Part shown: in pieces, positions 6,284-38,090 of the stretch
How positions within the stretch are numbered: position 1 is the first letter of the stretch
How the letters are laid out: each line of letters begins with the position of its first letter
The notes under the pieces: generated by a model
Seen by the model: the letters and a program-made list of their open reading frames with translations, nothing else
What the model was told of the DNA's origin: nothing
Databases searched by the model: none
Position numbers and translations under genes: made by a program
Source of the DNA: a virus
Virus record (IMG/VR): IMGVR_UViG_3300009285_004900
Coordinates: 1 to 40,652 of that record
Direction: 5' to 3' (one strand)
DNA: 40,652 bases

Positions 6284-6469
6284 TTATTTCATCATCTTAC
6301 GAGCAATTTTAACATGCTCGGAGGAATAACTTTTACCCAATGATTTCTTCTTATGCCATTTAGAGCTTCCAGCTTTCCCCTTATTCATCGAGGCATAAAA
6401 TATTTGTTCGGCTTCGTATTGATTCATCATTGAGTATAAGACTTTTTCACCTGTTTTGGTTAGTAGCAT
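6284..6469 (-). CDS. Small basic hypothetical protein
   Basis: A 61-residue basic protein with the C-terminal stretch KSYSSEHVKIARKMMK. The ATG at 6469 has an SD (GGAGAC) about 9 nt upstream and overlaps the end of the portal gene by 23 nt. A longer form would run 107 nt into the portal gene and is less likely. Confidence 0.55.
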   Translation of the reverse strand: MLLTKTGEKVLYSMMNQYEAEQIFYASMNKGKAGSSKWHKKKSLGKSYSSEHVKIARKMMK

Positions 6470-8645
6470 TTTTACTGTCTCCTCTCTGTGCTTGTAATGA
6501 TAATTTTGCCCTATCCATTGCCTGTTGCTCGGCTTCTTTTTGCCGTATCTCATCCTCGCTTATCTGAATACCGACTTTCGCTGCCATTTGCGATTTGCCC
6601 GAGGGTGGCATGTCTCTAAATGATATAGATTCAGATGGCTTTTTTTCTTCACTTACTGGTTGTTCTCTGTCTTTTAACTTTGTATCTTTAATCGCCTGCG
6701 CCGTTGCCAACATTCCCTCCTCAATCCTTTGTTCGCTTGTCGGCAATACTCCCGCTTCTTGCATGTCTTTCATCACTTCTCCGACAGCAATTTTTATCTT
6801 CTCAATTTGATCCTCTGTCATCTGTCCCTCCGCTCCAAACTCATCCATTGCCTCTATAATTTCATTAGTTGATCCAAATTGATATATCTCCAAAAGCCTC
6901 TGGAAGTATACTTTGATAACCTCTGGCGATACAAGACCAATTTGTGAAAGCTGAATAAGATAATCTCCAAGTTCTTTGGCTGCCGCTTTTTGTGCTTCTC
7001 TAGTATAGGCAAGCCCGCTCTGCACTTCTATCTCTACCCGATAATCCCGTTTTATGGGAATCGCATCAAGCGGCTGATCTTCATCAATCTTTAATTCCCT
7101 ACGTTTCTGCAATGCGGATGCGCCGATAATGTCAAAATACTGTGGTTCTCCCTTTTCCAGATAATAGACTGTTTGGGGTGTAACGAAATAATCATCGGCA
7201 TAATCAAGCATTTTCTCTGTTATCCGCTTTACTACTCCCTGTACCCGCGCCATTGGGATTGAAAGGTTTGCAAATTCGCTTTCTTTCAAACTTTCTATGG
7301 CGGCGTTGGCTTTAACTCCTTTAGGAATTTTAGCAAGGGCAGACGTTGTTACACCCTGTTCTTCAATCAAACTCTCCAATAAATTCATAAAACTGAAAAC
7401 GAACGGCGGAATAGAAACAAGCTGATTTTGCACGGGTGGCGTAGTGTTATACTTAAAGACTTGACCGCCTGGCGTATTGTTTGGTTCTTGCGGTTCTCCT
7501 GATTTAATTGACCATGAACCGGCAACCATTGTGTGAAGATACCGTTCAACCCTTGAAACTACAAGATCGAGCGATTTGTTCTGTGGGATAAAACGCTCAA
7601 TGAGGGGCACCTGATAGAGCGGCCCCGGCTCAAAACGCAAATCCACGAGCGGATACCCAGGAAGGTTAAGATATTCGTCCCGCAAAGTTATATTACCGGC
7701 TACGAAGGATTGACGAATAACCGGATCACCCTTTTTCCTACGCTTCAGTATCTCGCCACCATTATCTTGCAATTTTATTCTTGCTTCGTTTTCGTCATTC
7801 AGGTATTCCCTCACAAATGCTTCTTTCTCGATGATGGTTGCTGCCTGATCTGCGTTTGGTGCACCGCCAAATCTCGCTTTGGCGTATGCCTCTTTAATAT
7901 CCGATGAGGCATTACGATTGTCAGGATTTATTTTTAATAACTGATCTGCCGCAAATCGCTCATCTGCTTTAATCTCGGAGATGAGACGCGGTCTGGCTTT
8001 GATAACAAACGGGGAATCTTCAAGCTCGTTAACCGACCCTACGACATAAACATCAAACGCATCAAAAACCATTGTTTTCAGCGTTTCTTCGATGGCGTCA
8101 GGCCATACCTGAATGAAAGAAATACCGTGCTTTGCAGTAAGGATAATCATCAATACAAGCTTTTCTAAAAGATTTTGTTTCTTAAATTCTTCTTCTAACC
8201 AATGTCCGCTTGATTTTGCCACACGTTTTGCTTCATCAAGCGCTTTGCGGTATTCGGGATTGGGAACTTTTACTACTTGTCCTGTTTGTGGATCAGGTTG
8301 TTCGATTGCAGGATATTGCGCGGAAGATACCCGTTCAGGATAGACAATAGGAATGAATTGACGTGAAGAGAGAAGATTGGCAACACCACGTATCTGCCGT
8401 GATGCTTTAGGCAATGCCCGCATCGGCGCCCAGACAGTTGAATTTTGTGAAAGATCGACAATCTTATTTTGCGATCGTGAAAGATAGCGGAAGTGAAACC
8501 CGTCATCAAAGAAGTTGTTATCGTACCACCTCCGCTCAAACGACCAGCGAAGGTTTTTAGCCGACTGCATCATCGAATCTATGGCTTGGCCTACTTGGTC
8601 TTTCGTAAGATGGCTGGTTGAGTAACTGAATGATCTATCTGCCAT
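6447..8645 (-). CDS. Portal protein
   Basis: A 732-residue protein downstream of terminase. Its length is close to the P22 portal (about 725 residues) and well above the HK97 type. Features consistent with a portal include an N-terminal helical wing, an Arg-rich stretch near residue 80 (ALPKASRQIRGVANLL), a central stem/clip region with PLVDLRFEPGPLYQVPL, and a Gln/Lys-rich helical C-terminal barrel. Portals form the dodecameric DNA channel and bind the terminase. The ATG at 8645 follows the stop of the upstream gene by one base; the extra codons upstream use weak starts. A long portal supports a podovirus-like particle. Confidence 0.85.
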   Translation of the reverse strand: MADRSFSYSTSHLTKDQVGQAIDSMMQSAKNLRWSFERRWYDNNFFDDGFHFRYLSRSQNKIVDLSQNSTVWAPMRALPKASRQIRGVANLLSSRQFIPIVYPERVSSAQYPAIEQPDPQTGQVVKVPNPEYRKALDEAKRVAKSSGHWLEEEFKKQNLLEKLVLMIILTAKHGISFIQVWPDAIEETLKTMVFDAFDVYVVGSVNELEDSPFVIKARPRLISEIKADERFAADQLLKINPDNRNASSDIKEAYAKARFGGAPNADQAATIIEKEAFVREYLNDENEARIKLQDNGGEILKRRKKGDPVIRQSFVAGNITLRDEYLNLPGYPLVDLRFEPGPLYQVPLIERFIPQNKSLDLVVSRVERYLHTMVAGSWSIKSGEPQEPNNTPGGQVFKYNTTPPVQNQLVSIPPFVFSFMNLLESLIEEQGVTTSALAKIPKGVKANAAIESLKESEFANLSIPMARVQGVVKRITEKMLDYADDYFVTPQTVYYLEKGEPQYFDIIGASALQKRRELKIDEDQPLDAIPIKRDYRVEIEVQSGLAYTREAQKAAAKELGDYLIQLSQIGLVSPEVIKVYFQRLLEIYQFGSTNEIIEAMDEFGAEGQMTEDQIEKIKIAVGEVMKDMQEAGVLPTSEQRIEEGMLATAQAIKDTKLKDREQPVSEEKKPSESISFRDMPPSGKSQMAAKVGIQISEDEIRQKEAEQQAMDRAKLSLQAQRGDSKNATNQNR

Positions 8646-8646
8646 A

Positions 8647-8907
8647 TTAGACAATCTCCTTATTTATCATCTCTTTGAATTTTTCATCCGATATATCGCT
8701 TTCGGGTATAAACTCTGATTCTTTGGCAATTGGCGGTTCAATAGGCTTCACTTTGTCAGTAAGCTCAAGATCACGATATTGCTCTGGTGTTTTTGCGATA
8801 AGCGCATTCATCCACTTTGTCCGTTCTTTTTTGTTCTCGTTTTTTTCCCACATCAACAGACCAAATAGCGCGAAAACTACCAGTCCTAAAACTATTTCAG
8901 CAATCAT
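8647..8907 (-). CDS. Single-pass membrane protein between terminase and portal genes
   Basis: An 86-residue protein with an N-terminal hydrophobic helix (IAEIVLGLVVFALFGLLMW) and a charged, Glu/Lys-rich tail expected in the cytoplasm. SD AAGGAGATT lies just before the ATG at 8907. Placement inside the packaging operon is unusual for a membrane protein. Function unknown. Confidence 0.65.
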   Translation of the reverse strand: MIAEIVLGLVVFALFGLLMWEKNENKKERTKWMNALIAKTPEQYRDLELTDKVKPIEPPIAKESEFIPESDISDEKFKEMINKEIV

Positions 8908-9374
8908 ATAATCTCCTTTCGGTGTTCCCAGTATTGATCCCATTGATTCGGTATTTTGTAGATTTCCGGAGCATAGAGTTTCTGGTCTGCAAAGTTAAAA
9001 TAAGGATATTTATTTTTGATGAACGTGCATTTTACAGGGATATCGCCATAATTATACGTAAACCCATCATCGGTTATTTTCCCCTTTACCCAATTACGAA
9101 ACGTTGACATAACCTCATGGGTAACATGGCGTTTTTCGATTATACATTCTATCATCTCGCAATCGAGCCCTCTCTTCTCCTTTATACATCTAGCCGCGTC
9201 TCCAGTTACGACAAATGTCGTATCCAAAAGAACCCTCTGCATAAGATCGAAAAGATCAAGCAATGCGGAGTTTAATTGTTCAAGAGAAAACTTATATTGC
9301 TCCCCATTCGTTCCAGATTTCGGGAGTGATTTCTGCTGCAATTTCTTGTGTTTGTGTTTTAAGTGCTTCTTCAT
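8904..9374 (-). CDS. Hypothetical protein after TerL, possibly nucleotidyltransferase-like
   Basis: A 156-residue ORF whose first 27 codons overlap the terminase end, so the true start may lie inside the frame; no good SD helps to decide. From residue 40 the segment LDTTFVVTGDAARCIKEKRG, with strands containing EMIECIIEKRH and a later GDIPVKCTFI, is reminiscent of small nucleotidyltransferase-fold proteins in phage packaging regions. I cannot confirm catalytic residues. The stop overlaps the next ATG (ATGA type). Confidence 0.55.
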   Translation of the reverse strand: MKKHLKHKHKKLQQKSLPKSGTNGEQYKFSLEQLNSALLDLFDLMQRVLLDTTFVVTGDAARCIKEKRGLDCEMIECIIEKRHVTHEVMSTFRNWVKGKITDDGFTYNYGDIPVKCTFIKNKYPYFNFADQKLYAPEIYKIPNQWDQYWEHRKEII

Positions 9375-10629
9375 AACTTAAGCGGATCAGCGTTTTAGGC
9401 TTCTCCATTGCCTCCTTTTCTTTTATAATTAACCGCCAAACTGCCAATGCGTGCGCAATTATGATATCGTCATGAAACCCTTGCGGCGCTTCATATCGTA
9501 CTCGATCTGTTACCTCTGATATATCATACGTAAAATTCGTCAATTCCCGCTTTGTCTCTTCGATTGGGAGTATATGTATCCGCTTCAACTCTATCCAATT
9601 TACCAGCTTTTCAATCAACTGTCTTTTCTGGTCGTTAGTAAATCTGATAGGATCGACCGGTATTCCCATTCTTGCAAGATCATCAACAATCGGATCGCCT
9701 AGTCCTGTGGCATCAATAACTACTTGAGCAGGCGACGTACCGTCAGTAAAATGTCGCGCGGTTTCCGCGATCCTCGCCTTTTGCATTCCCCAGTCTATCT
9801 TGTTGAACCGCGCTTGATAAACTTGTTTATTATTGGTTGCATCATAAACCGCCAGAACCGTAAAATCTTCAACTCTTGCAAGGTCAACGCCTATTATATA
9901 CCGGTGTCCCGCTTGCGGCTTTCTTGGCTCTGCATCCATGATCTCAAGGAAGTTACGGAATACAACACCAGTATCTTCAAGAAATTGTGCGTATATCTCC
10001 TGCTGTACTACCCTTTCCGGCATCGATGCTATATCCGCACGGATAGCCGCTAGATCAATGAATGGGTTGTCAAAGCTAGTGAATGTGAAAAAACTATAGA
10101 GCGGTTGTTCAGGGTCTTTTCCACGTTCTGCCAGCTCGAACAGCTTTCCTTTTCCTTTTGGCGTTCCGCCTATAACCGCCCGCAAGTTCGGATAATCCCA
10201 AAACATTGGCCGGATGGCGTTATCCCACAGATATTCGTTCTTGAGAATGATGCCTGCTTCATTGAGAAACGCCTTGTCGTATCCAAAGCCTTCCATCGTT
10301 TCTGGCGTATCTGCTGATCGGAAGTCAATATACGCGCCATTGATTGTAATCATCTTGGCCTGTTTGCGCCATTCCCACACATTCTTTGGCAATTTGTTAA
10401 GGTGCGGTATAAAATATCTCTCTATATACTTATCGATATTCGTATTAACTACATCTACCCATAATCCCCGTTTGAATGTTCCTTCTAGCGCGCATTTGAT
10501 AAAGTTGTTTGCCGCGCCTTTGGTCAATCCAAACCGTCTTCCTTTAGCAACAATCGTATATCGTGATTGACTATCAAAGATTGACTGTTGTTTTGGAAAG
10601 TTCTTTATGGGTAGTTCCAGTTGGTTCAT
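9292..10629 (-). CDS. terL: Terminase large subunit (packaging ATPase and nuclease)
   Basis: A 445-residue protein with the full TerL layout. A Walker A-like motif VAKGRRFGLTKG is at residues 27-38, in the arginine-rich form common in phages. Walker B YDKAFLNEAG is at 117-126 with its Asp and Glu. The C-terminal RNase H-type nuclease has GVDLARVEDFTVLAVYD (Asp249), VIDATGLGD (Asp306) and FHDDIIIAHALAV (Asp387/388). It powers DNA translocation into the procapsid and cuts the concatemer. The ATG lies inside the end of terS with 56 nt of overlap, so translation is probably coupled. Confidence 0.95.
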   Translation of the reverse strand: MNQLELPIKNFPKQQSIFDSQSRYTIVAKGRRFGLTKGAANNFIKCALEGTFKRGLWVDVVNTNIDKYIERYFIPHLNKLPKNVWEWRKQAKMITINGAYIDFRSADTPETMEGFGYDKAFLNEAGIILKNEYLWDNAIRPMFWDYPNLRAVIGGTPKGKGKLFELAERGKDPEQPLYSFFTFTSFDNPFIDLAAIRADIASMPERVVQQEIYAQFLEDTGVVFRNFLEIMDAEPRKPQAGHRYIIGVDLARVEDFTVLAVYDATNNKQVYQARFNKIDWGMQKARIAETARHFTDGTSPAQVVIDATGLGDPIVDDLARMGIPVDPIRFTNDQKRQLIEKLVNWIELKRIHILPIEETKRELTNFTYDISEVTDRVRYEAPQGFHDDIIIAHALAVWRLIIKEKEAMEKPKTLIRLSYEEALKTQTQEIAAEITPEIWNEWGAI

Positions 10630-11002
10630 CTATTTTTTTTTCTGAAACGATTTTGATTATGAGTGGTTTATCTTCGTCGCTGATATGTTCCATAACGGTT
10701 TTTAATGCAAATTCGTTGTGATATTTTCTTTCCAGCCACCATGCCGCTGCTTGCCATGTAGTTTGCGCTGCCTTTTGAATAAATGCTATATTTCTTGCCT
10801 TACATGTGTTCTCTGCTTTTTTTAGAGCCTCTACAAGCTCTACATGATAGGATGGATTCGGTTTTCCATCGGATTCCAATTCTCTCTGCCAATCGTAAAA
10901 AGTAGATTCTGAAACACCTGCTAAATTAGCACTATCTTTATAATTATTGCCAGCATTAATATATTTACAAATTTCTTCGACTATTTCCTTACTATATTTC
11001 AT
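10574..11002 (-). CDS. terS: Terminase small subunit
   Basis: A 142-residue protein with an N-terminal helix-turn-helix (NYKDSANLAGVSESTFYDWQ, residues 19-38), central helices (residues 52-90) and a charged tail, as in small terminases that recognise packaging DNA. It immediately precedes and overlaps terL. The ATG at 11002 directly follows the seven-T run of the hairpin at 11010-11028. The only SD-like bases, AGAGG, lie just 5' of that hairpin. A start four codons upstream would fall inside the hairpin and is unlikely. Confidence 0.85.
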   Translation of the reverse strand: MKYSKEIVEEICKYINAGNNYKDSANLAGVSESTFYDWQRELESDGKPNPSYHVELVEALKKAENTCKARNIAFIQKAAQTTWQAAAWWLERKYHNEFALKTVMEHISDEDKPLIIKIVSEKKIDEPTGTTHKELSKTTVNL

Positions 11003-11040
11003 AAAAAAAGACACGCTTTCTGCGTGTCCTCTAATAGACG
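11003..11040 (-). terminator. Terminator-like hairpin between SD and terS start
   Basis: GACACGC-AGAAA-GCGTGTC (11028-11010) followed by seven T, then ATG: a textbook intrinsic terminator shape placed immediately before a start codon. AGAGG (11032-11028) abuts the 5' arm, so folding would put an SD about 7 nt from the AUG. The upstream block GCGTCTATTAGAGG resembles the leaders at 3156-3190 and 35393-35425. Confidence 0.6.
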
Positions 11041-11064: not shown

Positions 11065-11098
11065 ATTATAGCTTACTCTTTTTTGTTTATTTTGTCAA
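11065..11098 (-). promoter_or_regulatory. Promoter-like elements at the methyltransferase 3' end
   Basis: A perfect TTGACA (11098-11093) lies within the last codons of the methyltransferase gene, and a perfect TATAAT (11070-11065) just after its stop. The spacer is 22 nt, longer than the usual 16-18, so activity on its own is uncertain. The same 22-nt arrangement occurs at 29106-29139. Confidence 0.4.
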
Positions 11099-12194
11099 TT
11101 ATAGGTGTGATCGTCTGCCATTCTTCCTCTTTTTCTTTATTATAAGCATGTTCCAAAATATATTTTCCTACTTCTGGATGTATTATATCTCTTATTATTT
11201 TATCTTTTGGATAATCCGAAGAAACTTTGAAATTAGTTAAATCAAATCCCCATTTTTTAATCATTTTATTATCAAATCTATCAATCGAATCTATCTCAAT
11301 TTCATTGAAAACTTCATTATCCGGTATATCAAAATTAGCCCAATAATAATGCCTTCCTCTTTCTTGTGGTTTGATTAATGAATCATACCAACTAATAACA
11401 TTTTCTATACACCATTTTCCCTTGAAATAACCTTGTAAGAATAATATCTCCTCATAAAGTTTCATATCGGGATAAATTGGTTTACTATTTCCAAAGTTTT
11501 TTCTCATTCTACTATGTGTCGGACAAGGAGGACTAGACCATATAAAATCATATTTTTCAAAATGTTCTTCTAAATATTTATGAGCATCAGTAATTATTAT
11601 TTTATCATTTGGAAAATAATATTGATAAATTTTAGCTATTTCAGGATTTAATTCCACTGCGGTTATATCTAATTCACCCCATAATCTACGATTACCACCA
11701 ATACATGAATATAAATTTAATATTTTAATATCTTTAATATCTTTTACTTGTTCTCTCTTAAATTCTTCAATTGGAGCAATATTATCAATCAATTGTTGTA
11801 TATTCTCTGGAAATTTAATATCAACAGCATATTGCGACCAGTCAAAATCGGGATATTGCGGGATCATGTTTGCCAGAAGATCGCTATCGTAAAACCCTGC
11901 TCTGTCGTTGTCCGATAGTGCATATTCCAGTTTTTTCTTCTCGGTAGTCGCATCAACTACCGATACCCATATATCTCTTATACCCAATTCTTTATAAGCA
12001 CGAAGACGCATATTGCCACCCAATACTGTACCTTCATTAGTTATAAGCAATGGCTTATATACATTAAGTTTACCAATTTGTTTTTTAAGCCTTTCATAAT
12101 CTTTTTCTTTTATGCTTCTTGGATTCTTTTCCCAATTTTTAAGATCGTTTATATTTGCAATAATTTTACCGTCTTTTATAATTGTATTTATCAT
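11073..12194 (-). CDS. ParB-like domain fused to DNA cytosine-5 methyltransferase
   Basis: A 373-residue fusion. Residues 10-130 match the ParB/sulfiredoxin-like module seen in phage methylases (KNPRSIKEKDYERLKKQI, then GTVLGGNMRLRAYKELG). Residues 157-345 are a C5-cytosine methyltransferase: motif I ILNLYSCIGG (158-167), an acidic loop AVELNPE (179-185), motif IV SSPPCPTHSR with the catalytic Cys224, and motif VI WCIENV (261-266). It would methylate viral or host DNA at C5. The DNA coding the C-terminal half is visibly more AT-rich than the N-terminal half, suggesting a recent fusion. It follows the sugar cassette after a 111-nt gap in which I see no clear signal. Confidence 0.85.
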   Translation of the reverse strand: MINTIIKDGKIIANINDLKNWEKNPRSIKEKDYERLKKQIGKLNVYKPLLITNEGTVLGGNMRLRAYKELGIRDIWVSVVDATTEKKKLEYALSDNDRAGFYDSDLLANMIPQYPDFDWSQYAVDIKFPENIQQLIDNIAPIEEFKREQVKDIKDIKILNLYSCIGGNRRLWGELDITAVELNPEIAKIYQYYFPNDKIIITDAHKYLEEHFEKYDFIWSSPPCPTHSRMRKNFGNSKPIYPDMKLYEEILFLQGYFKGKWCIENVISWYDSLIKPQERGRHYYWANFDIPDNEVFNEIEIDSIDRFDNKMIKKWGFDLTNFKVSSDYPKDKIIRDIIHPEVGKYILEHAYNKEKEEEWQTITPIIDKINKKE

Positions 12195-12305: not shown

Positions 12306-12782
12306 TTATCTTCTCAAACTCAAAAAATAAGGTTTATTATGTTTTATTATTTCATCCACGATATCTGGTATATCTTCCTTTTTTTCTGGCCATACACATT
12401 GTATATTTGGAAACAATTTAAGAGTGTATTTTGCATCCTCACTCCAATGGCTAAATCCATCATGAGTATAATCTTTATCTCGTCCAGATGCGATAAGTTT
12501 TACATTTAATTTCTCGTGATTTACATAATTTCTAATCGTTTCAAATGGACGATATAAAAGAAACGTAGTAATACTGTAGATAAATGGTATTTTACCTTCT
12601 AATGCCAATCCACAGGCTATTCCCATTCCTGCCTGTTCACTAGCTCCAACGTTAATAAATTGTTCTGGTAACTCATCTCTAAATTGATTCCAAAGTTTAT
12701 AGCCTAAATCCATCGTTACCACAATAATATCTTTATTTTTTTTAGCGTGTTTAAATAATTTATCCGCAAATAGCCTTCTCAT
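12306..12782 (-). CDS. Transketolase-like C-half, pyrimidine-binding domain only
   Basis: A 158-residue protein matching the PYR domain of transketolases. FINVGASEQAGMGIACGLAL (residues 42-61) holds the conserved Glu49 that activates thiamine pyrophosphate, and the segment ASGRDKDYTHDGFSHWSED matches the substrate-side loop. Ordinary split transketolase C-subunits have about 300 residues; this one stops after the PYR domain and lacks the C-terminal domain, which in this family is not needed to bind the cofactor. It overlaps the N-half by 23 nt and should assemble with it into one enzyme. It is the last gene of the sugar cassette. Confidence 0.85.
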   Translation of the reverse strand: MRRLFADKLFKHAKKNKDIIVVTMDLGYKLWNQFRDELPEQFINVGASEQAGMGIACGLALEGKIPFIYSITTFLLYRPFETIRNYVNHEKLNVKLIASGRDKDYTHDGFSHWSEDAKYTLKLFPNIQCVWPEKKEDIPDIVDEIIKHNKPYFLSLRR

Positions 12783-13392
12783 ATTCCTCCTTTGTCATTA
12801 CATGATAATGAGCTGACTGTCCTTTCAAAAAAGGTAGTTGTTCAACATTTGTCAGTCGTATTTGTAATTGGTTATACAATCTATCATCGTTTAACATAAA
12901 ACAGATAGGATCAAGATCATCATCTTTTAATTGTCTATATGCTCCATAAAAATTATAGTTAAGATATAATTTGAGATTGTTTAATTTTTCTCGCCTCATT
13001 ATTTGCGCTGATTCATAAATACTCCCCTCTGCACATTCCCCATCACTTATTATACAGTAAACGTTTTTTGTTCTATCAGCCAACGCCATCCCAACGGCAA
13101 TCGGCAATCCTTGTCCAAGAGAGCCAGTAGAACAATCGAGTCCACAAATAGAACACCGATCAGGATGAGTACCATGATGCTTCCATATTTCTTCCGCATT
13201 TCTACCTCCGTATTTCTCAATTACACAATAGAGCGCCACTCCTGCATGACCACTACTCAATATAAATAACTCGTCTTTCTTTTTAATTTTGTATATTTCA
13301 TCAATAATATTTACCGAAGTCAAACAACTGCCAATATGGGACAATTTATTTCTATAGCTTATTTCTAGTATCCGTTTTTCAAGTTTGTTCAT
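12760..13392 (-). CDS. Transketolase-like N-half, thiamine-pyrophosphate-binding domain
   Basis: A 210-residue protein matching the PP domain of transketolases. It has an N-terminal His-containing HIGSCLTSVNIIDEIY and FILSSGHAGVALY. TGSLGQGLPIAVGMALA and the cofactor/metal motif SDGECAEGSIYESAQ follow, ending about 30 residues later in NYNFYGAY. It is shorter than usual (about 270 residues). Transketolases move two-carbon units between ketose and aldose phosphates and can make sedoheptulose-7-phosphate, the entry point of heptose synthesis. Stand-alone split versions also occur in polysaccharide loci, where they may act on other sugars. Its start overlaps the stop of the epimerase gene. Confidence 0.85.
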   Translation of the reverse strand: MNKLEKRILEISYRNKLSHIGSCLTSVNIIDEIYKIKKKDELFILSSGHAGVALYCVIEKYGGRNAEEIWKHHGTHPDRCSICGLDCSTGSLGQGLPIAVGMALADRTKNVYCIISDGECAEGSIYESAQIMRREKLNNLKLYLNYNFYGAYRQLKDDDLDPICFMLNDDRLYNQLQIRLTNVEQLPFLKGQSAHYHVMTKEEYEKAICG

Positions 13393-14170
13393 GTGATTTT
13401 TTTTGATAAAAATCTATTGTCTCTCGCAATCCCTCCTCAAGTGACCTCGTATCCCATCGAAATATCCTTGTATCTGCAACCCATCTATGCGTATCATACC
13501 CGCGCATATTCTCAATGTATTCAATTTGCGGAGTAACGCGCATTATCTTGCTTATTATCCTTACAATTCTATTGTTTGTAGTCTGTAGGCCGGTACCGAC
13601 AGGGATTGCCCATTGGGTGATTTTTGTGTAATATTCCGTACAAAAAATTACAGCATTAACAAAATCTTCCACATACATCCAATCATGCGCCGGCGATGGG
13701 TCAAGCCGTAACTCTTCATTCTGCACTATGCTTCGTATAACCGTTGGAATAAATCTAAAATCCGCTTCACCAGGACCAAAAATAGAGTATGGCCGAATTG
13801 AAATAATCGGCTTTTTATATTCATCTGAAAAAACCTTGCACAATTCTTCTCCTGCTTTTTTTGTAGCCGAATACATTGTCTGTACAGGCAACGTTACGCT
13901 TGACGTTGAAAAGTTGACAAATGCCTTATAGTCAATGTTTTTTGTATTTTGCAAATATACCCACAACAAATCTATATTCGCCTTCTTTATTTCATTTATG
14001 TTTGTCAGATGGCTATGGTTTCCGTATCCCGCCAAATGGAAAAAGTAATCAAATGACTTATCATACGTATCCCATTGCTTCAATCTTACAACCTCATGCT
14101 TTAATTGTTCCAATCTTCGACACAAATGTTTCCCGATGAATCCTGATGCTCCCGAAACTATTGAGCGCAT
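13379..14170 (-). CDS. NAD-dependent epimerase/dehydratase (extended SDR)
   Basis: A 263-residue protein with the Rossmann motif VSGASGFIG (residues 5-13), an FHLAGYGN strand after the second cofactor site, the catalytic pair YSATK (Tyr100, Lys104) and the downstream substrate loop RPYSIFGPGEADFRFIP. The family acts on NDP-activated sugars as 4,6-dehydratases, epimerases or reductases; the exact reaction cannot be read from sequence. At 263 residues it is shorter than usual (310-340). The ATG at 14170 has an ideal SD (GGAGG, 5 nt away). In this cassette it most likely modifies the activated heptose. Confidence 0.85.
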   Translation of the reverse strand: MRSIVSGASGFIGKHLCRRLEQLKHEVVRLKQWDTYDKSFDYFFHLAGYGNHSHLTNINEIKKANIDLLWVYLQNTKNIDYKAFVNFSTSSVTLPVQTMYSATKKAGEELCKVFSDEYKKPIISIRPYSIFGPGEADFRFIPTVIRSIVQNEELRLDPSPAHDWMYVEDFVNAVIFCTEYYTKITQWAIPVGTGLQTTNNRIVRIISKIMRVTPQIEYIENMRGYDTHRWVADTRIFRWDTRSLEEGLRETIDFYQKKSHEQT

Positions 14171-14366
14171 TCTGACCTCCTTTCCGTATAAAAACTGTTT
14201 CTCCGCATTGGCCGCATACAACAGCAAAATTATTGCTTATAATTCTTGTGGTTCCTTTATGAAACCGCATAACGGTAAAAAAACCGTATATGTCCATTTC
14301 GCCCAGAATTTGCCGTTGTCCGTTTTTTTCACACTTTGGACAAATTATAAGTTGTTTTTTGTTCAT
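14094..14366 (-). CDS. Small zinc-ribbon protein in sugar cassette
   Basis: A 90-residue protein with CPKC (residues 9-12) and CGQC (around 52-55), a four-cysteine zinc ribbon. The ATG at 14366 follows GGAGG by 9 nt and overlaps the nucleotidyltransferase end. The last 25 codons overlap the epimerase start in another frame. That overlap is long and the C-terminal sequence carries no family signal, so only the ribbon part should be trusted. Confidence 0.55.
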   Translation of the reverse strand: MNKKQLIICPKCEKNGQRQILGEMDIYGFFTVMRFHKGTTRIISNNFAVVCGQCGETVFIRKGGQNALNSFGSIRIHRETFVSKIGTIKA

Positions 14367-14889
14367 CAAAATACCTCCTTGCTTCTTCAAGCCGCGGAAC
14401 CGTACCAACGTCAAACCATACGCTTTTATCCTGACGGTACGGCCGGACGGATAAGCTCTGATTTACAAAATATGAAGAAGAATAAATCCACGTGCCCGCG
14501 CAACGCCACTCATCCATATAGGCAGTAATGGTATCCGGCTTATGAAACATACTCATTTCCGTATAATCTACATCGCTTATTGTATCCCCATTTATCACCA
14601 TAAAACTTGATTCTTGTACCAACCAATTCTTTAACGCCATGATTGTTTTATGATGGCCAAGAAGTCGAGGTTCGTAATAATACAACACTCGCCCGCCCAA
14701 ATAGTCCGTCAATATATGCGGTAAATAATGCAAATTAACGATAACATCGCGGATTCCATGATCTGCCAGACGAGTAAGAATATGTTCAATGACTGGCTTT
14801 CCTCCCACGTCAATCATTGGTTTAGGTTTATCCTTCGTCAATTCTCCAAGTCGTGTCCCGTATCCTGCCGCAAGCAATATAACTCTCAT
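14329..14889 (-). CDS. Sugar-1-phosphate nucleotidyltransferase, HddC-like
   Basis: A 186-residue protein. It shows LAAGYGTRLGELT followed by KPKPMIDVGGKPVIEHIL (residues 6-36), the NTP-binding and phosphate loop of the family, then VINGDTISDVD (metal-binding Asp, around 98-108) and a late WFDVGT strand. Related enzymes transfer a nucleotide onto sugar-1-phosphates, including HddC in GDP-heptose synthesis. It is 40-50 residues shorter than HddC, with loss mainly between the GDT and DVGT motifs, so activity should be tested. The neighbouring GmhA- and HddA-like genes point to heptose-1-phosphate as substrate. Confidence 0.8.
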   Translation of the reverse strand: MRVILLAAGYGTRLGELTKDKPKPMIDVGGKPVIEHILTRLADHGIRDVIVNLHYLPHILTDYLGGRVLYYYEPRLLGHHKTIMALKNWLVQESSFMVINGDTISDVDYTEMSMFHKPDTITAYMDEWRCAGTWIYSSSYFVNQSLSVRPYRQDKSVWFDVGTVPRLEEARRYFDEQKTTYNLSKV

Positions 14890-15023
14890 AAATTACCATT
14901 AAATATTTTATATATATCTTCTTTAGATAAATTTGAATATAAACCCTGACGATTTGGTATACGACCTTTCATAGCATGCATCGCTTTTAATCCTTTTTTA
15001 TCCCCATATTCATCTTTACTCAT
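14886..15023 (-). CDS. Small conserved-looking protein between kinase and nucleotidyltransferase
   Basis: A 45-residue ORF starting with MSKDEYGDKKGLKAMHAMKG. It has a strong SD (GGAGGGGAG) and is coupled at both ends: its start overlaps the kinase stop and its stop overlaps the next ATG. The tight packing argues that it is translated. No family recognised. Confidence 0.55.
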   Translation of the reverse strand: MSKDEYGDKKGLKAMHAMKGRIPNRQGLYSNLSKEDIYKIFNGNL

Positions 15024-16011
15024 ACAACTCCCCTCCTTTCTTTTCCTCTTTTATTTCCAGTCCTCTAGTGTCGGGATAATAGATAATGTGCTCACACCCC
15101 TCTTTTTCCATGTGTGCAACAACTGTGTCCTGTTGATTTGGCGGCACCCAAAACGCCATATATCCACAGCCGCCGGCGCCAAGTATTTTCCCTCCTTCAG
15201 CACCGTTATCGCGCGCGGCGGTATATAACTCATTTATCCGCTTTGTTGATATTCCCTTATTAGATTTCTTTTTCAACAACCACGATTCGTGAAGCAATTC
15301 TCCAAGCGACATAAAATCTTCGTGCATGATTGCCGCGAACGCCTTTTGTGCCGACTCTTTTATTGAATGCAATTTTTGTGTTTGTTCTTCAGTTAAATTA
15401 ATAAATCCCTGTTGTACCTTATGGGAGGCTCGCGTTCCTCCGGTATCGAAAAGCAATAAATACTTACAAATTTCATTGGCATAATAAGAAGATAGTTCTA
15501 CCCTTCTTACCTTGGATGGAGCGGTAACAATATAATTCTCAAAGGTTAAAACACTCAATCCTCCATACGCCGCCGCCCATTGATCTTGTTTTCCGCCATG
15601 CCATCCCATTAAATACTCTTCTGCCTCCCATGCGGATTTAGCAATATCTTCTAATTTCATTCCTAATTGTTTCCGCTTGTTTATTGTTCCTATAAGCGCT
15701 ACACACGCCGAGGCACTGCTTCCCAATCCCGCTCCTATCCGTCCATCAAATTCGCTTTTTATTTTTGTAATGTGCCCACCATCAATACCATATTTTTTGA
15801 AGATGGTATAAAATAAATTCGGATCGGCATTTGTAGGAAATATATTATCAGGTCGCTCAAAAATATCGTTATCGCTATACATCGTAACTTTTGTACGAAG
15901 ACTAATGGCCATGTTAATACATATACCCCTATATAACGAAACGTAAGGGTCAACATCTGTACCTCCTCCAAATAACGAAATCCTTGTTGGTGAAATTGCT
16001 TGAATTTTCAT
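15016..16011 (-). CDS. hddA: D-glycero-D-manno-heptose 7-phosphate kinase-like GHMP kinase
   Basis: A 331-residue GHMP kinase, a normal length for HddA. It has SPTRISLFGGGTD (residues 7-19), the GHMP phosphate loop GAGLGSSASACVALIG (93-108), GKQDQWAAAYGG (around 141-152), which is typical of the HddA/fucokinase branch, and the C-terminal KILGAGGCGYMAFWVP. HddA phosphorylates the anomeric C1 of heptose-7-phosphate in the GDP-D-glycero-D-manno-heptose pathway. A fucokinase-type specificity is the main alternative, but the GmhA-like isomerase just upstream favours heptose. It starts 6 nt after the isomerase stop without a clear SD. Confidence 0.85.
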   Translation of the reverse strand: MKIQAISPTRISLFGGGTDVDPYVSLYRGICINMAISLRTKVTMYSDNDIFERPDNIFPTNADPNLFYTIFKKYGIDGGHITKIKSEFDGRIGAGLGSSASACVALIGTINKRKQLGMKLEDIAKSAWEAEEYLMGWHGGKQDQWAAAYGGLSVLTFENYIVTAPSKVRRVELSSYYANEICKYLLLFDTGGTRASHKVQQGFINLTEEQTQKLHSIKESAQKAFAAIMHEDFMSLGELLHESWLLKKKSNKGISTKRINELYTAARDNGAEGGKILGAGGCGYMAFWVPPNQQDTVVAHMEKEGCEHIIYYPDTRGLEIKEEKKGGELYE

Positions 16012-16017
16012 ATTAAA

Positions 16018-16440
16018 TTATTTAAGTTTTTCATATACGGAATGAATCATCTGAAGATGAATATCTTCTGTTCTTGATGTACTTTTTTTTGTTTCTTTAT
16101 TGGTAGAAAAAGAGAATACCACCATTCCTAATTGTTTCGCAGTTTTTATAGCCTCAACAATATTCGGAGAAGTGCCGGAACAGGAAAGAGTAATAAAAAG
16201 ATCGCCTTCATCCGCCCAAAGTTTTAACGGCCGTGAAAAAACATGTTTATATCCAGAATCATTTGCTGTCGCGGTGAGAAATCCTATATCACATAATGCC
16301 ATCGCTCGCACGCCGCGACTCATCAAGTCTTCGGCAAAATGAATAGCATTACAAGCCGATCCACCATTACCACAAATAAATGCCTTCCGCTTCCCGGATC
16401 GAATAGTTTTGATCAACTGAATTAACTTTTTACTTTTCAT
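16018..16440 (-). CDS. gmhA: Sedoheptulose-7-phosphate isomerase-like SIS protein
   Basis: A 140-residue SIS-domain protein. FICGNGGSACNAIHFAEDLM holds the phosphate-binding Gly-Asn-Gly-Gly-Ser and the catalytic-type Glu of GmhA. ATANDSGYKHVFSRPLK, SCSGTSPNIVEAIKTA and a C-terminal EDIHLQMIHSVYE with the catalytic-type His follow. GmhA converts sedoheptulose-7-phosphate to D-glycero-D-manno-heptose-7-phosphate. Usual length is about 190 residues; here the long N-terminal helix is reduced to some 20 residues, a region that takes part in tetramer contacts. The ATG at 16440 is used; the upstream in-frame codons overlap the previous gene. First gene of the cassette. Confidence 0.85.
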   Translation of the reverse strand: MKSKKLIQLIKTIRSGKRKAFICGNGGSACNAIHFAEDLMSRGVRAMALCDIGFLTATANDSGYKHVFSRPLKLWADEGDLFITLSCSGTSPNIVEAIKTAKQLGMVVFSFSTNKETKKSTSRTEDIHLQMIHSVYEKLK

Positions 16441-16739: not shown

Positions 16740-17072
16740 CTACCATTCTCCCTCCAACATTCTCTTAAAATCCTTCCATTCCAAGCTCACCAAAGTCAGT
16801 TTTTTGCCCTTATAGCGAGTAAGAGCTAGGGGTATAGCTTTCTTGCTCGTACAAGCGCTTTTCGCCTGTACAAATGCCTGTAGAATGTTGGGTTTTGTGC
16901 CATATTTGCACTGTATGATCAGTTGGTCTTCGCCGTCTGTGGCAACAATGTCGCAACCAGAACCAGTCCTTCCAAATTGCTCATGCCAGTTTCTTTTACT
17001 ATCAAATCCAAGAATACGCAATTCTCTAACTACCTCTCTCTCAAATGATTTCCAGGGTTGGTAAGAACTCAT
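16740..17072 (-). CDS. PD-(D/E)XK nuclease, Holliday junction resolvase-like
   Basis: A 110-residue protein with the Hjc-like restriction-fold signature: Glu in FEREVVRELRILGF (residues 10-23), RTGSGCDIVATDG with the catalytic Asp, and LIIQCKYG, where Gln-x-Lys replaces Glu-x-Lys, a known variant. Small stand-alone enzymes of this type cut branched DNA during recombination or before packaging; a nicking or degradative role is also possible. The start overlaps the stop of the membrane protein at 17069-17191 (ATGA). Confidence 0.75.
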   Translation of the reverse strand: MSSYQPWKSFEREVVRELRILGFDSKRNWHEQFGRTGSGCDIVATDGEDQLIIQCKYGTKPNILQAFVQAKSACTSKKAIPLALTRYKGKKLTLVSLEWKDFKRMLEGEW

Positions 17073-23357: not shown

Positions 23358-24083
23358 TTACCAAAATAATTGTCGCATAGTTTCTTTTCTCATTTCTATT
23401 TCTAATTGATATTCTTTTTTTATGTTTTTCCAATCCCAAAATGCCGAAGTCTGGTGGTTATTGAATACATCCGCTACCGTTCGTCTTACAAACTGGCTCG
23501 GGATTACTTTTTCTTCCTCTATAGCAAGGAAAGCTGATCTACCTTGCCGCACGTAAAAATACGCTTTCCCATCTGTCAACTCCTGCGCCGCCTTTATATG
23601 GTTAAAGCCGTCAGGTTCCAGCTCCCACATCGGTACTTTATTATCGAAAAACCTTTGTTTTATCTCACTCATAACTTCCATACCATCAGGCAAAAGTACG
23701 GTATTGAGATGCGAATGGTAGACACTTTGGTGCGATATGACGCCACAATCTCCATCCCTCTTGTTCCCCGCTCCATTCTCAAATAACACCACGTTCTCAC
23801 GTCCTGTTTTCTCTTTTAACCGTTTTATTATTTCGTCAACTTCAATTCCTTCTTCTTCCGGTACTTCATAGTAGCTCAACATGTGTTTTTTGGGAAAAAC
23901 TACATAGTATTGGTCTGTTGCGGGGGCTTTATCTATTAACGCTATGAAGTTTGGCGTCTTAATCACTATATCATTTTTCCGTGTCGTTAAATCACAAAAA
24001 GGGCATCCTTCTTTTGACTGTTCTAAAAATTTCTCCCGCTCCATTTTTTGTTTATCAGATAACCTGCCTAAATATCGATTCAC
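23358..24083 (-). CDS. HIT-family protein with CPFC motif and altered histidine triad
   Basis: A 241-residue protein. It has a zinc-type CPFC (residues 27-30), the beta segment DKAPATDQYYVVFPKKHMLS and the HIT signature region SVYHSHLNTVLLP. The triad reads His123-x-His125-x-Asn127, so the catalytic third His is Asn. HIT proteins hydrolyse or transfer nucleotide phosphoramidates and dinucleotides. The last 90 residues are an extension without a recognised domain. Starts at GTG 24083 with SD GAGGAAA, overlapping the previous stop. Confidence 0.8.
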   Translation of the reverse strand: MNRYLGRLSDKQKMEREKFLEQSKEGCPFCDLTTRKNDIVIKTPNFIALIDKAPATDQYYVVFPKKHMLSYYEVPEEEGIEVDEIIKRLKEKTGRENVVLFENGAGNKRDGDCGVISHQSVYHSHLNTVLLPDGMEVMSEIKQRFFDNKVPMWELEPDGFNHIKAAQELTDGKAYFYVRQGRSAFLAIEEEKVIPSQFVRRTVADVFNNHQTSAFWDWKNIKKEYQLEIEMRKETMRQLFW

Positions 24084-29139: not shown

Positions 29140-30078
29140 TTAAATAAAAAAAGAGAGAATAAGAGCAAGATTTCTTAAAAGTAATGAGAGATTATAAGGA
29201 AATACAAAATCAATAATCGCTTTTTCATAATATCCCAAATACCACGTTGTTAAAATAGTAGCGGTTATAACTAAAACTGATTTCTTTATTTTAAGAAAAG
29301 GTAAAAATGGAGAAAGCCATAAAAGATATTGAGGTGAGAATACTTTTGAACCTAAAATAAAAGAAAGTATAATATAGAAAGAAGAAATAAATATATTTTT
29401 GTTTTTAAAGGCAAAGATATATCCAAGCGCCATCACGGCAAGAGGAACAATTAACGGCAATGATGAATCTTTAATTTGTATCGCATTATATTTATATTCA
29501 GTCTCTTTTTTGTTTATAACCTGTATTATACTTCCTGCTGTTGACTCCGGTTGCACACCCCGCTCAAAATGAAATTTCAAAGAATAGATATTAGAAAAAA
29601 GGACAATAGCAGATAAAAAAGCAACAAGAGAATAGATTGTGTATTTTTTACTTTTGATTGCTAAAAGAGGAATTAAAAGTATTGGCCAAAACTTTATGGA
29701 AATACCAATAAAAAGCAGCATTGCGCTTTTGACAAATTTATTCTTTTGAAAAAAGTATAAACTTAAAAACATTGCCACAACAACATATATATCAAGAAGT
29801 TCTATTGCAAGCGGGAAAAGCAGAAAGAAAGGAAGAATATATAACCATGCTCTATTGGTAAGTTTTATCAAAAAAAAGAACCCTATAAGAAAAACAATAA
29901 AAGTCTGTATATGAAATAGCCAGCTATAGAGCATAAAATCTGAAGTTGCTAATCGAGGTAAGATCATGGGGATAACGGCTCCACTGGGATATTCCAAACT
30001 AAACGCTTTTCCATTTAGAAAATATCCAGAATTAAGAAAATAATGCCATAAATCCCAAATTTTGATAAATTGATACAA
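29140..30078 (-). CDS. GT-C type membrane glycosyltransferase, probably N-terminally truncated
   Basis: A 312-residue integral membrane protein with at least eight hydrophobic helices. The order SLEYPSGAVIPMI, then IKFWPILLIPLL, then SKVFSPQYLLWLSPFLPF matches GT87/DUF2029-type mannosyltransferases, which use lipid-linked sugars. Related proteins normally have 50-80 more N-terminal residues with the first helix and an essential acidic loop; here the frame starts at a TTG about 12 nt after a promoter -10. Either truncated or started at an internal ATG. It interrupts the virion genes and looks like cargo that modifies the host surface. Confidence 0.65.
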   Translation of the reverse strand: MYQFIKIWDLWHYFLNSGYFLNGKAFSLEYPSGAVIPMILPRLATSDFMLYSWLFHIQTFIVFLIGFFFLIKLTNRAWLYILPFFLLFPLAIELLDIYVVVAMFLSLYFFQKNKFVKSAMLLFIGISIKFWPILLIPLLAIKSKKYTIYSLVAFLSAIVLFSNIYSLKFHFERGVQPESTAGSIIQVINKKETEYKYNAIQIKDSSLPLIVPLAVMALGYIFAFKNKNIFISSFYIILSFILGSKVFSPQYLLWLSPFLPFLKIKKSVLVITATILTTWYLGYYEKAIIDFVFPYNLSLLLRNLALILSFFI

Positions 30079-35458: not shown

Positions 35459-36613
35459 TTATTGTACTATTTTTTTTTGTTCTGTCAATGGCAATAATTC
35501 TTCTTGCAAATTTTCTAAGAGCGGAATCCAACAATCTCGAACAATCGTATCAATATTGAAGTTTTGCACTATCCATTCCCGACAATCTTTTTCTACCTGT
35601 TTTTCATCTTTTTTGAGAAGTGCGTATGTTTTTTCCATACATTCATACACGGATTTTGGATTAGCTACATTAACAAAACTCAAATCCTGTGTAAATCGTT
35701 TATATAGGGTTTCTGCAATAAATCCTGTTTTTCCTTCAATGATAAGTTCCGGCATGGATTGAGAATTTTGGACAACAACCGGTTTTCCGCTGGCCTGTGC
35801 TTCGATAATCCCTAATCCAAATCCTTCTGTCTGTGATGGATGTAAAAGAGCATCACAAGCATTATATTCATTGGCTATAGTATCGGAAGTGGAAAGGAAC
35901 ATAGAGCGATAATCATCAACGAAGAATATCCGCTTTTGTATACCGAGATAATTGGCATATTCTTTGATGGGGAAGCCCGCAGGAGATCGCTGTTGAATAT
36001 GAAAGAGCATTGCTGCTTCCGGGTGTTTTTCGTAAAACATTTTGAACGCTTCTAGTGCCTCCTGAAAACCTTTACGCGGCGGGCTTTCTTTGTTCGCTCC
36101 AACCATTGACCAAAGAAATATATCCTGTGGCAACCCCAATTTCTTACGGGCTTCTATTTTATCTCTTGGCTTAAAAATCTCTATATCCGTACCCTCATAG
36201 ATAAGTTGAGAAGCGAAACCCGCGTTAAGAAGCAAATTATAGCCAAACTTTGAAAAACATAAGATTTTGTAGGCGAATTGGAGCTTTTGGATGACATTAA
36301 TGGGTAATGGTTCTTTGTCTACGGGAAAATATGGGATGAAAACTGGGATTTTAGATAAAAATGAAGGATCAAGAGTCCAAATGTCTTGCATAGAGATGAC
36401 CACATTCGCTTTCCAGTTTCGTCCATGGAAGTACATACCGTCCGATCCCCATGCCTCACTCATTTTGGGATAATGCTTGATGGTAAGCCCTTTTAGCCGC
36501 GGATTAAGATTGACAGGATATTCTATGTCTGTCGGGCCGCCATCTACGCCATAAAAAGCCGAGATGGCTACCGGCCAGCCATCTTCTACCAAGCGGTAGA
36601 GAATATCACGCAT
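35459..36613 (-). CDS. GT4-family glycosyltransferase, N-terminus in another frame
   Basis: A 384-residue GT-B enzyme. The C-terminal domain has the donor-site signature HPSQTEGFGLGIIEAQASG with the Glu-x7-Glu pair (Glu263 and Glu271) and the usual GKPVV strand. The N-terminal domain lacks its first strand and glycine loop in this frame, but they are encoded just upstream in a frame one base off (36624-36701). Joined, the enzyme would have about 410 residues, normal for GT4. It transfers a sugar from an NDP-sugar; the heptose cassette could supply it. The stop overlaps the promoter at 35461-35488. Confidence 0.8.
   Translation of the reverse strand: MRDILYRLVEDGWPVAISAFYGVDGGPTDIEYPVNLNPRLKGLTIKHYPKMSEAWGSDGMYFHGRNWKANVVISMQDIWTLDPSFLSKIPVFIPYFPVDKEPLPINVIQKLQFAYKILCFSKFGYNLLLNAGFASQLIYEGTDIEIFKPRDKIEARKKLGLPQDIFLWSMVGANKESPPRKGFQEALEAFKMFYEKHPEAAMLFHIQQRSPAGFPIKEYANYLGIQKRIFFVDDYRSMFLSTSDTIANEYNACDALLHPSQTEGFGLGIIEAQASGKPVVVQNSQSMPELIIEGKTGFIAETLYKRFTQDLSFVNVANPKSVYECMEKTYALLKKDEKQVEKDCREWIVQNFNIDTIVRDCWIPLLENLQEELLPLTEQKKIVQ
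35461..35488 (-). promoter_or_regulatory. Promoter for second virion operon
   Basis: TTGACA (35488-35483), 16-nt spacer, TACAAT (35466-35461), overlapping the end of the GT4 gene. A second TTGACA at about 35431-35436 has no matching -10. Confidence 0.65.
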
Positions 36614-36701: not shown

Positions 36702-37323
36702 AAAACATCACCTCCTTTTCCACTGGGACTTTATTGCCCCATGTGGGCGTCTTTTTGTGGCACTCGACGCAAAGTGTCCTGCCATTATCTACATCTAATC
36801 TCAAATCTGGGTATAAAGAAAACTTCTTAATGTGATCTGCTTGAAGGCATCCACTTTCATTATTCTCACAAAGTACACAAATAAAATTATCTCTACTAAA
36901 TACTTTTAACCTCCACTCTTTGTACTCTTCGGAATTCCTAATTTTGTAGTTTTCTGGAGTAATTCCACCTTTCCAGTTATTATTATTTTTGCCTCTAACC
37001 TTTTCACTTACAAACATAGTTTTGGCAGCATTGGTATTTATAAGATAGGGTCTTTTCTTATCCATCCAATATCCATTGGGGCCAATATTGCCTATTGCCG
37101 TACATTTCATTGAACAATACTTTGCCTTATTAATGCGGGATTTATGAATTTCAAACATTGTACCGCAAACCAAACACTCTTTATACAACCGCCTTCTGTG
37201 AGCAATGTCGGAACATTCTCTACCGCAGTATTTTCCACGATCATTTCTGATATGCCAAATGGTATTTTTAGCCTTAAATACTTTGTTACAAACTAGACAA
37301 TTTTTGTCGATTATATAACTCAT
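36694..37323 (-). CDS. HNH endonuclease with zinc fingers
   Basis: A 209-residue protein. The N-terminus has two zinc-finger-like units (CLVC...CGREC and CLVC...CSMKC). A linker NNNWKGGITPENY leads to an HNH domain: FICVLCE, ADHIKKF with the catalytic His, and TLCVECHKKT. This is a common free-standing phage HNH type. It overlaps the GT8 stop (ATGA) and lies directly before the broken GT4 gene, so an insertion here may relate to that frameshift. Confidence 0.8.
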   Translation of the reverse strand: MSYIIDKNCLVCNKVFKAKNTIWHIRNDRGKYCGRECSDIAHRRRLYKECLVCGTMFEIHKSRINKAKYCSMKCTAIGNIGPNGYWMDKKRPYLINTNAAKTMFVSEKVRGKNNNNWKGGITPENYKIRNSEEYKEWRLKVFSRDNFICVLCENNESGCLQADHIKKFSLYPDLRLDVDNGRTLCVECHKKTPTWGNKVPVEKEVMFYA

Positions 37324-38090
37324 GATTTTACCAATTCATCCAATCGTTTACAAACATTCGGTTGAAAATGTAATCTGTACTTCATTTTCCCCACGTTTCC
37401 GCCCGCCCAATGGATAACCTTGATTTTCTTTTCTTTATCTGGCCACCCGTCTGTTGGCGGTAAAACCAATTCATTACCAACTAGTTTAATGTTCGACCAA
37501 TAGCTTTTACTTGCCAAACCATGAAAACTATCCTCATCATCCAAAAACCTCACTTTATATTGCCCGCCAAACTTCGTTCCCATGAAAAAAATCATAAAGT
37601 TAAGCAAGTCTTGTTCTCTGTATTGAAAGTTGTTAAAGTGCTCCGACATACAAAGCCCTAACCATTGATCTACAAAAACCTTTGACTTCATAACCACAAA
37701 ACCGCAGTTAGCATAGGAAAATGGATGAATATCTAATAATCGAATAGGGTATAATTTATCTTCCCGCGGATTACTATTTTTTACTACGGCTACGTCAAAA
37801 TCTCCCTCCCAAATATGGTCGAGATTACCGGTAATGATAATATCTGCATCTAACTTCAAAATTACATCGTAGTCCTTGAACAATGCTTTCGCAATAATGG
37901 GAGTTGCTCTATACCAAAAATGTGGGTCTCCCAATTGTTTAACTTTTGCTTCATCAATAATTATTACGGGTAATTCCGCTTGACTATGAAACTTACGCAA
38001 AGAATTTATGCACATTTGCGCATATTTCATATTGTTGCTGTCTGATGGAATAAAAACACATTTTTTCATATTAATTTTTGTCTTTTCCAA
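37320..38090 (-). CDS. GT8-like (GT-A) glycosyltransferase
   Basis: A 256-residue protein with a GT-A fold signature: the metal-binding Asp-Ala-Asp at residues 81-83 in ILKLDADIIITGNLD, the acceptor-side NCGFVVMKS, and the C-terminal VIHWAGG, which supplies the metal-binding His of the GT8 family. It uses a nucleotide-sugar donor in the cytoplasm. The start is a TTG right after AAGGAGG (spacing short), or the ATG at 38069. Together with the GT4 it forms a glycosylation pair in this operon. Confidence 0.8.
   Translation of the reverse strand: MEKTKINMKKCVFIPSDSNNMKYAQMCINSLRKFHSQAELPVIIIDEAKVKQLGDPHFWYRATPIIAKALFKDYDVILKLDADIIITGNLDHIWEGDFDVAVVKNSNPREDKLYPIRLLDIHPFSYANCGFVVMKSKVFVDQWLGLCMSEHFNNFQYREQDLLNFMIFFMGTKFGGQYKVRFLDDEDSFHGLASKSYWSNIKLVGNELVLPPTDGWPDKEKKIKVIHWAGGNVGKMKYRLHFQPNVCKRLDELVKS

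Follow-up and report, generated by a model that had tools for sequence, protein, structure and literature searches.

A single viral record, IMGVR_UViG_3300009285_004900 of IMG/VR (40,652 bases, called linear; analysed whole and hereafter the window), carries a compact gene cassette on its minus strand at 12306-16440. The cassette combines a core resembling the enzymes of nucleotide-heptose synthesis with a short-chain dehydrogenase/reductase (SDR) and a transketolase split between two genes, tkN and tkC. Our tentative proposal is a modular nucleoside diphosphate (NDP)-heptose pathway in which the SDR and the two-domain transketolase make a C-branched nucleotide sugar for a GT8/GT4 pair of glycosyltransferases, probably for virion glycosylation. 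With more reserve, we consider it possible that the phage-enriched two-domain transketolase uses the keto group of an NDP-sugar, giving C-branched NDP-heptoses (e.g. nine-carbon sugars) for virions, and that transketolase and YerE enzymes are swapped in this role. We infer hydroxyacetyl transfer to an NDP-keto-sugar from gene context and module swapping only.

In the proposed pathway the GmhA-like isomerase would convert host sedoheptulose-7-phosphate to heptose-7-phosphate, which the HddA-like kinase would phosphorylate at C1. The C7 phosphate would be removed by a phosphatase, a host enzyme in the case of the window and a compact phage HAD protein in four relatives, and the compact nucleotidyltransferase would yield the NDP-heptose. 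The SDR probably creates a C4 keto group on the nucleotide sugar, to which the two-domain transketolase would add a two-carbon hydroxyacetyl unit from a host ketose phosphate. The GT8/GT4 pair would attach the resulting C-branched sugar, most likely to a virion protein. Every substrate, the branch and the acceptor we infer; gene content, gene order, recurrence, domain loss, catalytic conservation, exchange of the thiamine diphosphate (ThDP) enzyme module and co-conservation of the glycosyltransferases are direct observations.

The two-domain transketolase and its SDR

The transketolase is encoded by tkN (12760-13392; PP domain, 210 aa, assigned by Pfam and NCBIfam) and tkC (12306-12782; Pyr domain, 158 aa, catalytic Glu49). 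The original prediction, made from the sequence of the window, spoke of both halves of a transketolase. That holds for the PP and Pyr domains; the third transketolase domain (PF02780) is absent from the whole window record and from five relatives, in a search whose positive control was found in 14 of 14 genomes.

We aligned 104-106 compact transketolases, viral and bacterial. Residues H19, H49, H76, D117, G118, E122, N147 and H195 of tkN are invariant (106 of 106 for H19, H49, H76, D117, N147 and H195), as are E49, R78 and H112 of tkC (104 of 104). Since its catalytic residues are invariant, the compact transketolase is an enzyme under constraint and not debris. Throughout the family, two canonical phosphate-ligand positions are taken over by bulky residues and a conserved G-R-D-x-D-Y stretch; the two arginine positions that flank them stay R or K. 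We take the phosphate ligands of ordinary transketolases to be an Arg, a Ser, a His and an Arg, the replaced pair being Ser345 and His416 of human transketolase. Among solved structures, the split transketolase of Carboxydothermus hydrogenoformans (PDB 6yaj/6yak) comes closest to both subunits. The C-terminal chain of that enzyme has 341 aa and runs well beyond the 158 aa homologous to tkC, in which PF02780 is absent.

A tkN profile gave at least 409 viral matches, and the compact transketolase also occurs in Patescibacteria and other bacteria. Among the best 80 of the viral matches, tkC is the next gene after tkN in 73, and 58 have an SDR no more than two genes upstream; heptose genes are found at only 3 of these 80 loci. 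In 33 further loci a gene of the E1/RfbH type is no more than eight genes away from tkN, alongside many SDRs of the 4,6-dehydratase type, and 17 of 149 neighbours match RfbH in NCBIfam.

The SDR of the window (13379-14170) is an extended SDR of the NDP-sugar 4-epimerase or C4-oxidising type, assigned by Pfam, NCBIfam and an AlphaFold2 (AF2) model. The model has a mean confidence (pLDDT) of 89, and its best fold matches are UDP-sugar 4-epimerases and other C4-oxidising enzymes. The YxxxK motif is kept, and STSSV stands where 4,6-dehydratases have T-D-E, which would make a 4-epimerase or C4-dehydrogenase-like reaction likelier than dehydration. A C4-dehydrogenase that acts on GDP-heptose does exist, namely Cj1427 of Campylobacter jejuni.

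Exchange of modules among related phages

In about 15 divergent members of one phage family the same ordered cassette stands beside terminase and portal genes, so the arrangement is not due to chance. Many of the contigs are fragments, and our counts of relatives (loci labelled L) are lower bounds. The full set occurs in the same order, ending at the terminase large subunit (TerL), in L028, L029 and L100. With an alignment-based kinase profile we added L146, L147/L148, L151, L154 and L158, which have the SDR and transketolase genes (L158 lacks a gmhA match and the L154 contig ends inside tkN), and L144, L145 and L150, which are without them. The kinase used as a single sequence gave no match in the viral scan, whereas alignment-based queries did. 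Fecal records labelled as phage and a Listeria phage record from wastewater, which carry HddA or a split transketolase, look bacterial, and we did not count them as evidence from phages.

In L012, L013, L015 and L016, whose TerL is 79% identical to that of the window, the genes gmhA, hddA, nucleotidyltransferase and Zn-ribbon are kept without SDR-tkN-tkC (gmhA of L015 would lie beyond the contig end). Conversely, L043, L050, L056, L064, L089 and the L110 prophage have the SDR and transketolase genes upstream of terminase, with no heptose genes in the available upstream sequence. The Zn-ribbon gene accompanies both modules. As heptose plus transketolase, heptose only and transketolase only all occur, the two modules combine freely.

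Some of these cassettes are interrupted. Small HNH-like or other open reading frames break into the cassette at L016:8083-8460 (between hddA and hddC) and L110:8611-9228 (between tkN and tkC), and tkC is in two pieces at L064:7192-7668. The GmhA proteins of L016 (6610-7074) and L012 (4204-4653) are clearly different versions, one with and one without a 9-residue loop, despite kinases that are 71.5% identical, which suggests gene replacement at the gmhA position.

Two relatives carry another type of ThDP enzyme. At L150:4567-11037 the genes gmhA, HAD, hddA and nucleotidyltransferase come first. In place of the SDR and transketolase genes there then follow genes for a ThDP enzyme of 559 aa (acetolactate-synthase family), for an SDR and for an RfbH 3-dehydrase. 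In the RfbH protein a His-His pair takes the place of the lysine that binds pyridoxal phosphate, a change that we assume to be diagnostic of this 3-dehydrase. RfbH makes the CDP-3,6-dideoxy-4-keto sugar that serves YerE as acceptor. YerE adds a carbon branch to this sugar (PMC12247030). The best PDB match of the L150 ThDP enzyme is 8rph, the YerE-like ketone-coupling enzyme JanthE (PMC12188165). L150, of the same phage family, is likely to carry a branched-heptose cassette. In L144, RfbH and SDR genes directly follow the nucleotidyltransferase gene and overlap. Its YerE-like enzyme lies upstream (L144:3450-6540) as two open reading frames about 1.4 kb apart with two other frames between them, and is either split or disrupted.

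There is also a precedent for the transketolase itself. For the split-gene transketolases of miharamycin and amipurimycin synthesis, transfer of a hydroxyacetyl unit to keto sugars after the action of an oxidoreductase has been proposed, with no proof in vitro (PMC12247030). Context, substitution and precedent converge on sugar branching as the putative chemistry.

The probable heptose core

The core consists of a compact GmhA-like isomerase with a SIS domain (gmhA, 16018-16440, 140 aa), an HddA-like GHMP kinase with all three GHMP motifs (hddA, 15016-16011, 331 aa) and a compact sugar-1-phosphate nucleotidyltransferase of the HddC/MurU/RfbF type (14329-14889, 186 aa). The best NCBIfam matches of the isomerase are D-sedoheptulose-7-phosphate isomerase (92 bits) and then TIGR00441 gmhA (90.5 bits, cut-off 209). 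Its best PDB sequence matches are phosphoheptose isomerases, which are also the top PDB folds for its AF2 model (pLDDT 89). The isomerase of L146 scores higher, at 147 bits. The kinase matches HddA in NCBIfam (141 bits against a cut-off of 600), and in the PDB it matches HddA best (8.5e-33), followed by other heptose kinases of the HddA/WcbL type. The comparison with profiles and structures that had been suggested, for these two enzymes among others, gave heptose enzymes as best matches, with profile scores below cut-off.

The nucleotidyltransferase, assigned by Pfam, NCBIfam, motifs and PDB, matches MurU, glucose-1-phosphate cytidylyltransferase and HddC in NCBIfam, all below cut-off. Its top PDB match is 6jq8, a 'putative 6-deoxy-D-mannoheptose pathway protein'. 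The GxGxRL, PKPM and NGDT motifs and a late Asp are kept; sugar and base specificity are not readable from such motifs. The isomerase and nucleotidyltransferase are shortened, yet folded (in the model) or motif-complete. As the original prediction had it, the core is best read as a nucleotide-sugar route of the heptose type (GmhA/HddA/HddC-like).

The gap left by GmhB, the C7 phosphatase, had been noticed before, and TIGR00213 is indeed absent from the window record, as it is from 12 further records. Four relatives (L100:5423-5743, L146:6647-6961, L150:5039-5389 and L151:4230-4520) have a compact HAD-like gene of 96-116 aa in just this place, with gmhA on one side and hddA on the other. These proteins have a conserved DxD motif and a shared C-terminal ending (DDRxxRFTxWxDxxKxF in most), with weak profile matches to HAD or capsule phosphatases. 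Going by sequence, they are the best candidates for a minimal GmhB. Of the evidence within the cassettes, a candidate phosphatase gene in this position speaks most strongly for a heptose bisphosphate intermediate. For the window phage the host may provide the activity. The genome that hosts the L110 prophage (G013) has a GmhB-like gene at 139 bits (cut-off 149.6), and the capsule cluster of C. jejuni likewise does not include gmhB (PMC10680097).

Glycosyltransferases, host and use

Homologues of the portal protein, of a GT8-type glycosyltransferase (37320-38090 of the window, minus strand; 40-55% identity) and of a GT4-type glycosyltransferase (35459-36613, minus strand; 39-55%) are found in 13 of 13 family records tested, whichever tailoring module is carried. 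Three glycosyltransferases had been predicted as users of the product. Two of them are these GT4 and GT8 genes, and for the third (29140-30078) neither Pfam nor PHROG gives a match. In the window and in the L110 prophage the GT8/GT4 genes lie between capsid and tail genes. This position among structural genes favours virion glycosylation.

L110 is an integrated prophage on a contig of 487 kb from Candidatus Roizmanbacteria UBA1450 (Patescibacteria); L139-L141 also belong here. The order, as read from the sequence, is host uvrB/uvrA/uvrC-like genes, phage integrase, SDR, tkN, tkC, the terminase small subunit (TerS), TerL and portal. Beyond the portal gene follow, on the other strand, genes related to those of the window and of L064: tail genes, GT4, GT8, an FkbM methyltransferase and a major capsid protein. 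We surveyed 380 Patescibacteria genomes and 83 genomes from the order of G013 with the portal profile and obtained no match other than G013; the link to a host therefore depends on this single integrated prophage. A search of five bacterial genomes with TerL gave no match.

Two further points that had been raised about the product find no support. Nothing was found that points to decoration of DNA beyond a methyltransferase gene adjoining the cassette. As to recognition of ADP-heptose by ALPK1 in animals, no ADP specificity is shown, and the only host relative identified is a Patescibacterium from the environment.

Weighing the alternatives

Several observations weigh against the branched-heptose pathway. 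Every NCBIfam score in the cassette is far below the curated equivalog cut-off. The catalytic positions of the window isomerase read H61, E65D, Q172E and H180 (E. coli numbering), where most relatives read H, E, Q, H; H61, E65, Q172 and H180 are, we presume, the catalytic residues of GmhA. The SDR may be an epimerase, a dehydrogenase or a reductase. As neither RfbH nor a 4,6-dehydratase is seen in the window, the ketone could come only from this SDR. Our assignment of the phosphate-site residues is tentative. The acceptors of the GT8/GT4 pair are putative, a virion protein being the most likely, and the cassettes of L110 and L025 adjoin an integrase gene, with which lysogenic conversion of the host surface would also fit. 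Finally, the SDR and transketolase genes occur without phage heptose genes, so the acceptor need not be a heptose.

The alternative that fares best, although we consider it unlikely, is that of two independent pathways, one an NDP-heptose (or related) route and the other an SDR-transketolase pair that branches a different, host-made NDP-sugar. It would account for the presence of both modules, of heptose only and of transketolase only within one phage family, and the window SDR is most similar (47%) to the SDR of L033, a locus without heptose genes in the vicinity. However, the order hddC-zn-sdr-tkN-tkC and its overlaps are fixed in many lineages, and the RfbH and SDR genes that follow hddC with overlaps in L144 suggest a shared product.

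The original prediction was that the split transketolase makes sedoheptulose-7-phosphate from pentose phosphates for the heptose pathway; the SDR would then be a simple heptose epimerase or reductase. This now seems still less likely to us, even though the reaction is established biochemistry, the catalytic residues are intact and tkN-tkC is present in 9 of about 15 heptose-bearing lineages of the phage family. Five lineages of this family for which upstream sequence is available, the L110 prophage and dozens of unrelated phages have SDR-tkN-tkC but no heptose genes, and heptose cores exist without the triad. The host relative G013 has a full-length transketolase of its own (C1, 625-aa frame). 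L150 and L144 have instead a ThDP enzyme of the YerE/acetolactate-synthase type, which is not expected to make sedoheptulose-7-phosphate. The family-wide replacement of the canonical phosphate ligands also speaks against this role. With separable modules, a host transketolase and a YerE-type replacement, the supply of sedoheptulose-7-phosphate by the phage enzyme is unsupported.

A core whose GmhA/HddA/HddC homologues are relaxed and make another NDP-sugar (e.g. NDP-arabinose or a different pentose derivative) is improbable, although the sub-cut-off scores, the E65D and Q172E changes and the short nucleotidyltransferase might suggest it. Isomerase and kinase find their top matches among heptose enzymes and not in other SIS or GHMP families, the L146 isomerase reaches 147 bits, E65 and Q172 are kept in most relatives, and a phosphatase gene flanked by gmhA and hddA in four relatives fits a 1,7-bisphosphate intermediate.

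Relation to known systems

The capsule loci of C. jejuni (PMC10680097) resemble the branched-heptose cassette proposed here in that isomerase, kinase, nucleotidyltransferase and SDR tailoring genes stand together. Unlike them, our cassette is phage-borne, its enzymes are compact, GmhB is absent or represented by a HAD of about 100 aa, and a ThDP enzyme is among the tailoring genes. The miharamycin and amipurimycin systems (PMC12247030) share with it an oxidoreductase and a two-gene transketolase; those enzymes are 13 Streptomyces sequences, uncharacterised in vitro, whereas the cassette transketolase has two domains and lacks the third. The YerE, ErwE and JanthE enzymes act with RfbH in ThDP-dependent branching (yersiniose, erwiniose), and the same enzyme set stands beside the heptose core in L150 and L144. 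In the window, by contrast, the ThDP enzyme is of the transketolase type and there is no RfbH.

Phages of Patescibacteriota (PMC12911398; 46 genes) carry nucleotide-sugar genes, as the window phage does; transketolase is unmentioned there. The Synechococcus phage Bellamy has a similar cluster of HddA, nucleotidyltransferase and SDR genes, but with 4,6-dehydratase and aldolase genes and no compact transketolase in the stretch read. Transketolases of one or two domains are also found among glycosyltransferases and epimerases in hypervariable regions of SAR11 (PMC6811365), where their function was called uncertain. Those truncated enzymes are bacterial, with no link there to heptose or phage packaging genes.

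Nucleotide-sugar genes in Patescibacteriota phages and HddA clusters in cyanophages are thus already known. We found no published account of this cassette in the open literature searched. The features that appear to be new are a compact heptose core that comes with a mini-HAD, the constant association of this core with packaging genes, and a ThDP tailoring module that is interchangeable. At least one large catalogue of auxiliary metabolic genes deliberately excludes such islands (PMC11360552), so they may be under-reported.

The proposal ties a common and unexplained gene pair, the truncated transketolases of phages and bacterial surface-glycan islands, to a testable reaction, and it offers a candidate for a compact GmhB substitute. 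It also describes a phage family, linked to Patescibacteria by one prophage, in which the glycosyltransferases are constant while the donor-sugar pathway is swapped. If true, it would provide a transketolase that uses a ketone acceptor, which has so far been proposed but not shown.

Layout of the cassette and neighbouring genes

The six minus-strand open reading frames of the original prediction are all intact, closely packed and of the families guessed. A seventh cassette-conserved gene, recognised by comparison with relatives, was overlooked; it encodes a Zn-ribbon protein of about 90 aa (14094-14366, minus strand). The start codons of gmhA, the Zn-ribbon gene and the SDR gene were picked by comparison with relatives. 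Spacing is +6 bases between gmhA and hddA and +126 bases between hddA and the nucleotidyltransferase gene, followed by overlaps of 38 (nucleotidyltransferase/Zn-ribbon), 77 (Zn-ribbon/SDR), 14 (SDR/tkN) and 23 bases (tkN/tkC). Pfam matches in the cassette are SIS_2, GHMP N and C, NTP_transferase, Epimerase, Transketolase_N and Transket_pyr, with E-values of 1e-7 to 1e-25.

Terminase genes had been noted after the cassette. TerS (10574-11014) and TerL (9292-10629) are present, both on the minus strand, and another minus-strand gene, a fusion of a ParB-like domain and a short C5-cytosine methyltransferase (11073-12194), intervenes between the cassette and TerS. No counterpart at the TerS-side position was seen in the relatives examined, and we do not count this gene in the pathway. 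Adjoining TerL is a conserved gene of 735 aa (6447-8654, minus strand), the probable portal, which defines the phage family.

Immediately upstream of the cassette, 16740-17072 encodes a protein with an Hjc/Mrr-like nuclease fold. Farther away, 23358-24083 encodes a protein with a HIT/DcpS-like domain. The window also has a phage GroEL at 38421-40013 (Cpn60, 5e-51). GroEL-like genes are likewise found near HddA-like kinases in the IMG/VR loci L197, L204, L210, L211 and L221.

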